Positions 45,810 to 45,892 of a DNA stretch of 64,000 bases are shown here, piece by piece. The translations under genes were made by a program, and so were the position numbers. Below the pieces are notes generated by a model. The model was not told where the DNA came from. It made no database searches and saw only the letters and a list, made by a program, of their open reading frames with translations. The DNA lies in contig NZ_CP030126.1 in assembly GCF_003568845.1 (NCBI RefSeq), forward strand, positions 248,001-312,000, given 5' to 3'. Each line of letters begins with the position of its first letter. Within the stretch, counting starts at the first letter, position 1. This DNA is from Indioceanicola profundi. Its GTDB lineage: Bacteria > Pseudomonadota > Alphaproteobacteria > Azospirillales > Azospirillaceae.

Positions 45810-45892
45810 GAATCAGGTCGCTGTTTCAGCGACAATGAGTCAGGCCCCGAGTCGGCGTCAACAGTAATCTTCGCCCAAGAGTCAGTGGAGTC
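45810..45892 (-). promoter_or_regulatory. Cluster of five GANTC sites upstream of ccrM
   Basis: GANTC occurs at 45810-45814 (GAATC), 45837-45841, 45849-45853, 45879-45883 and 45888-45892 (all GAGTC). In Caulobacter the ccrM promoter contains GANTC sites whose methylation shuts off transcription, so this is a plausible autoregulatory region. The last site overlaps the rnhB stop. Confidence 0.7.

Follow-up and report, generated by a model that had tools for sequence, protein, structure and literature searches.

The window, by which we mean the whole 64-kb stretch of DNA analyzed here, carries on its minus strand the gene for the adenine-N6 methyltransferase CcrM, with the gene for ribonuclease HII (rnhB) as its upstream neighbor. 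The same order, with rnhB preceding ccrM on the same strand, is found in 219 of the 247 upstream regions examined. The best NCBIfam model for the ccrM product is DnaMtaseCcrMCaul (E 1.2e-188), with a score of 626 bits that lies under the strict cut-off of 830. A class A beta-lactamase gene is also located near ccrM, at window positions 43125–44120 (NCBIfam bla_class_A, 271 bits against a cut-off of 200). The 93-bp gap between rnhB and ccrM (45798–45890) contains most of the features considered below, where the promoter elements are putative.

44685–45797, minus strand: ccrM, GANTC adenine-N6 methyltransferase, 370 amino acids (Pfam N6_N4_Mtase, E 1.7e-64; RAMA, E 2.9e-15)
45810–45814, unstranded: leader GANTC, predicted to fall at about +12 of the transcript; also found near this position in Niveispirillum- and Nitrospirillum-like relatives
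45832–45837, minus strand: putative -10 element CATTGT; A2 and T6 conserved in family representatives
45837–45841, unstranded: core GANTC site 2, its last C forming the first base of the -10 element; locked to the -10 across families
45849–45853, unstranded: core GANTC site 1, in the spacer between -35 and -10; reads CGACTCG on the minus strand
45856–45861, minus strand: putative -35 element TTGACG of the ccrM promoter; invariant in an alignment of 20 family genomes
45879–45883, unstranded: upstream GANTC, starting 30 bases 5' of the start of core site 1; position conserved in Azospirillaceae
45888–45892, unstranded: upstream GANTC, 9 bp from the 45879 site; TGACTC pair 9 bp apart kept among relatives
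45891–46526, minus strand: rnhB, ribonuclease HII (Pfam RNase_HII, E 5.1e-42)

The original prediction of five GANTC sites within 83 bases upstream of ccrM is correct for every site, the plus-strand starts being 45810, 45837, 45849, 45879, and 45888. The last of these sites overlaps the rnhB stop codon (45891–45893), so the cluster is not wholly intergenic. GANTC is avoided in this genome, as indicated by the 81 occurrences in the 64-kb window compared with 234 expected from dinucleotide shuffles, and outside the cluster no 83-bp stretch of the window contains more than two sites. The claim that the cluster is denser than chance also holds, with five sites being reached in only 1 of 20,000 mononucleotide shuffles of the 96-base gap sequence and the densest 83 bp in an 800-kb sample of the same replicon containing three. 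Given 1.5 sites per kb, any one site would have four others within 83 bp with a probability of about 7e-6. When the whole 5.37-Mb genome was searched for sites following one another in steps of at most 30 bases, a five-site chain (three overlapping triples) was found only in the ccrM gap. The genome-wide density was thus judged by a whole-genome pattern search and the 800-kb sample, not promoter by promoter.

The minus strand across the core of the gap reads TTGACG-CC-GACTC-GGGGCCT-GACTCATTGT, which places two GANTC sites between the putative -35 and -10 elements, the second overlapping the -10 at a fixed position. The two elements are separated by 18 bases (TTGACG-N18-CATTGT), one base more than the 17 of most relatives, whose core sites are 11 bp apart. 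Transcription of ccrM would be expected to start near 45825–45826. A consensus sigma-70 scan of the region called no promoter, which can be explained by the -10 hexamer CATTGT being a weak match, far from TATAAT. The case for a dedicated sigma-70 promoter of ccrM in this gap is one of conservation, and the conserved -35 and -10 elements speak against the possibility, allowed for in the original prediction, that the gap contains no promoter at all. A 7-bp perfect inverted repeat, GTCGCTG-TTT-CAGCGAC (45817–45833), overlaps the end of the -10 element and the start region and looks like an operator, but it is not conserved in relatives and was rejected as one. The gap sequence does not contain a single TTAA and hence has no CtrA box (TTAA-N7-TTAA), and CtrA control of this promoter was rejected for that reason.

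Conservation was assessed within the family Azospirillaceae using 82 genomes, each with one ccrM. The genus is represented in the collection by this genome only, and its close relatives are Niveispirillum and Nitrospirillum-like Azospirillaceae. Both core sites are present by coordinates, in the same geometry directly 5' of ccrM, in 72 of the 82 genomes, and most of the other ten retain one embedded site. An alignment of the gap from 20 family genomes shows conserved islands consisting, in this order, of TTGACG, GANTC, and GANTCA with TTGT or a similar sequence after it, with the TGACTC pair lying upstream and a looser leader site downstream. The GA and TC of core site 1 are conserved in the alignment of near relatives. 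The check in relatives that had been proposed together with the original prediction therefore shows the sites to be conserved and tied to ccrM. The emphasis on a five-site array is not upheld, as relatives have anywhere from about 3 to 8 sites but keep the two core positions, and the array was rejected as the key feature. In one genus of the family, represented by five genomes, the ccrM core is remodelled; in three of these, a TATNNT -10 element immediately follows two back-to-back GANTC sites (GAATCGACTC or similar), and the other two have a single GANTC site and no TTGAC.

To cover the class Alphaproteobacteria, 142 genomes were drawn evenly, almost one per family, of which 102 encode CcrM and 98 provided ccrM upstream regions; TTGAC served as the anchor motif of these scans. 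With an exact TTGAC, both core sites are found in 34 of the 98 regions, the spacer site only in 19, and the -10 site only in 6, compared with 0.01, 0.38, and 0.16 regions, respectively, expected from shuffles. At least one embedded core site is thus present in 59 of the 98 regions (0.55 expected), and 39 of the 98 families are without embedded sites. A second pattern, TTGAC with a GANTC at 18–20 bases (in most cases 19) or a near-TTGAC accompanied by both sites, is matched by 41 of the 98 regions, by 0.46% of shuffles, and by 4 of 98 on the opposite strand. Counted from the start of the -35, core site 2 lies at an offset of 19 in 35 of these 41 regions and of 20, as in the window, in 4, whereas the offset of core site 1 floats between 7 and 10, indicating that site 2 is anchored to the -10 element and site 1 is not. 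The central base of core site 1 varies freely across the class (G in 13, C in 9, A in 6, and T in 6 regions), as would be expected if recognition by CcrM is what has been kept; in core site 2 this base is usually C. Among the -10 hexamers of 40 family representatives, 39 have A at position 2 and 38 have T at position 6, and the other positions are variable. Many families, especially those of the Rhodobacterales, have an extra upstream GANTC 14–16 bases before the start of the -35.

The arrangement is nearly specific to ccrM. The strict pattern TTGACNNNGANTCNNNNNNGANTCA has a single match in each of 16 of the 142 class genomes, 15 of these directly upstream of ccrM, and its reversed control has no match in the same 142 genomes. 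The genome of the window contains the double-site pattern at ccrM and once elsewhere, there with different spacing. The single-site form TTGAC-N14/15-GANTC gives 16 matches in this genome against 11 for the reversed control, which is no clear enrichment, and no wider regulon of the exact single-site form is seen in it. Taken together, the location of nearly all strict matches at ccrM and the lack of enrichment of the single-site form suggest that the double-site core is in essence specific to ccrM.

The finding that matters is therefore less the number of sites than what appears to be a conserved, ccrM-specific promoter with targets of the enzyme itself in the spacer and at the -10. Self-regulation of ccrM by methylation is the most economical reading of this layout and a likely one, and its recurrence across a large part of the Alphaproteobacteria suggests that the enzyme reads its own output and thereby sets its own level. 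From the sequences we infer that the promoter is used, that its sites are methylated, that the feedback is negative, and that methylation acts directly on RNA polymerase. Put in full, as a ccrM promoter that senses its own product, with CcrM methylating its own core promoter and the feedback being most likely negative and exerted directly on RNA polymerase, this reading has in our estimate about an even chance of being right. With a core of TTGACG, 17–18 bases, and CATNNT, one GANTC in the spacer and one fused to the -10, the adenines methylated by CcrM would lie at the very positions at which RNA polymerase binds and melts the DNA. Full methylation would then most likely reduce initiation by directly affecting sigma-70 binding or DNA melting, by analogy with Dam at the IS10 transposase promoter. 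Replication would leave the sites hemimethylated and re-open the promoter until enough CcrM had accumulated, resulting in a negative-feedback homeostat that fires after fork passage. The upstream pair and the leader site might make the switch more sensitive or serve to bind an additional reader, for instance GcrA in genomes that have it.

Shut-off by full methylation is only one of two possible signs. It is favored because the element is confined to the gene of the enzyme that writes the mark, so that methylation would report that there is enough enzyme and replication would reset the signal. Two observations in Caulobacter count against a negative sign. The ftsZ promoter, whose -35 and -10 flank a CGACTC, reaches its highest activity in the fully methylated state (PMC3708114), and a set of transcription start sites that have a GANTC between these two elements is activated at 40–60 min (PMC4287350).

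The natural candidate for a reader of the sites is GcrA, which partners sigma-70 and binds methylated GANTC preferentially (PMC3667746). In this alternative, GcrA and sigma-70 would recognize the methylated promoter sites and stimulate ccrM, either best in the hemimethylated state, as at ctrA P1, or best in the fully methylated state, as at ftsZ, the latter case amounting to positive feedback. GcrA is encoded in the genome of the window (PF07750 at contig C1:803755–804087, in an open reading frame of 119 amino acids), and the CGACTCG of core site 1 is the motif known from ftsZ and mipZ, located as in the ftsZ promoter (PMC3708114). At fully methylated ctrA P1, GcrA protects the region from -35 to -10 (PMC3667746). 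The motif of GcrA-activated promoters, YGAKTCG (PMC7987155), is matched by the sites at 45849 and 45810, and the other three sites do not fit it. Against this reading, the layout is no more common in genomes with a detectable GcrA (45 of 75) than in those without (14 of 23; Fisher p = 1.0, 98 class genomes), so GcrA was rejected as an obligatory reader and is unlikely to be the only one, and an effect independent of GcrA is favored. YGAKTCG at core site 1 is likewise not significantly enriched in GcrA-bearing genomes (14 of 40 compared with 3 of 13 without, p = 0.51), and core site 2 keeps a fixed position at the -10, whereas an activator site would float.

Accounts of GcrA and CcrM usually treat the two as a pair, and the 14 class genomes, G146 among them, that combine CcrM and an embedded-site promoter with no detectable GcrA are an observation in their own right. 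A custom profile built from ten GcrA proteins, which recovered three positive controls, gave no convincing match in these 14 genomes, the one match having E = 0.09. GcrA may be missing from draft genomes or highly diverged in them; G146 is a single contig, 100% complete, and has the 20-base offset seen in the window. Stimulation by GcrA is on balance rather unlikely. An effect of methylation on RNA polymerase itself appears to fit best, and such effects have precedents in the IS10 transposase promoter and in promoters targeted by MamA, where a methylation site overlapping the -10 alters transcription (PMC3701705).

The original prediction had drawn its analogy from Caulobacter, where the ccrM promoter is driven by a regulator, proposing that full methylation of GANTC sites shuts off the promoter and that five sites make this feedback stronger or graded. 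A review counts two GANTC sites in the Caulobacter ccrM promoter, and in a modelling paper that promoter is active only when hemimethylated (PMC10073500, PMC2217572). The leader site at 45810–45814, which lies downstream of the putative start, would also agree with such a scheme. We nevertheless consider it improbable for this locus, as the gap has no CtrA box, the region upstream of C. segnis ccrM lacks a TTGAC/GANTC core, and the number of sites differs among relatives while the core positions stay. The Caulobacter promoter is driven by CtrA and the one described here has two sites within the core promoter, so the analogy is not supported, and the number five is not what matters; what stands of the proposed feedback is that the sites are conserved, tied to ccrM, and not due to chance, and that the gap probably has a promoter of its own. 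That the sites have no regulatory role and are merely tolerated in intergenic DNA, outside the avoidance that applies to coding DNA, draws on the over-representation of GANTC in intergenic DNA throughout the Alphaproteobacteria (PMC3973325), but it is contradicted by a spacing relative to -35 and -10 that is fixed across families (59 of 98 regions against 0.55 expected), by the near confinement of the strict pattern to ccrM, and by the site positions kept in near relatives, and is very improbable.

Comparison with known methylation-sensitive promoters places the self-sensing reading in context. The ccrM promoter of Caulobacter crescentus belongs to the same gene and also has GANTC sites nearby; work by Stephens from 1995 reportedly located these sites near the promoter and proposed that their methylation influences its switch-off. 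It differs in being activated by CtrA and in having two GANTC sites, and in C. segnis the GANTC lies outside any TTGAC/CANNNT core. The CcrM/GcrA-activated ftsZ and mipZ promoters of Caulobacter are similar in that ftsZ has CGACTC between -35 and -10 (PMC3708114), but they have one critical CGACTC, for which no -10-fused partner is described, belong to other genes, and are activated by methylation. Caulobacter ctrA P1 has a GANTC at about -28, near the position of core site 1, and is bound by GcrA and dependent on methylation state (PMC4287350, PMC3667746); it differs in having a single site and CtrA as a second regulator, and in not being the promoter of a methyltransferase gene. In the IS10 transposase and Mycobacterium tuberculosis MamA promoters an adenine-methylation site lies over the -10 and is thought to act directly on RNA polymerase (PMC3701705), but these are Dam GATC or MamA sites and control genes other than that of the methyltransferase, leaving no feedback loop. 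In the parts of Brilli et al. available to us, ccrM is without CtrA sites in some groups and GANTC is counted upstream of cell-cycle genes in 500-bp windows, the arrangement of sites not being described there (PMC2877005). A description of a ccrM promoter with embedded sites was not found in the open-access literature searched.

Models of the role of CcrM in the cell cycle derive nearly all from Caulobacter, in which ccrM is under the control of CtrA. Should ccrM in much of the class instead have targets of its own product within its core promoter, the CcrM level would be set by the methylation state of one locus with no need for a response regulator, and ccrM expression would follow the passage of the replication fork over ccrM and not the CtrA phosphorelay. 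CtrA relays are weakly conserved in many Rhodospirillales (PMC8116508), and the proposed loop would offer a simple answer to how methylation is controlled in such bacteria. More tentatively, and with the odds somewhat against it, direct methylation sensing independent of GcrA could be the ancestral or a widespread mode of ccrM control, a closed loop without a regulator protein, with the CtrA circuit of Caulobacter being a lineage-specific replacement.

Two further observations concern the replicon as a whole. Its GC skew is weak and hints at an origin close to the two ends of contig C1 and a terminus around 1.33 Mb, by which ccrM would tentatively be origin-proximal. A 20-kb stretch (contig C1:2580001–2600000) has a G+C content of 50% in a replicon of about 67% and is probably acquired DNA.
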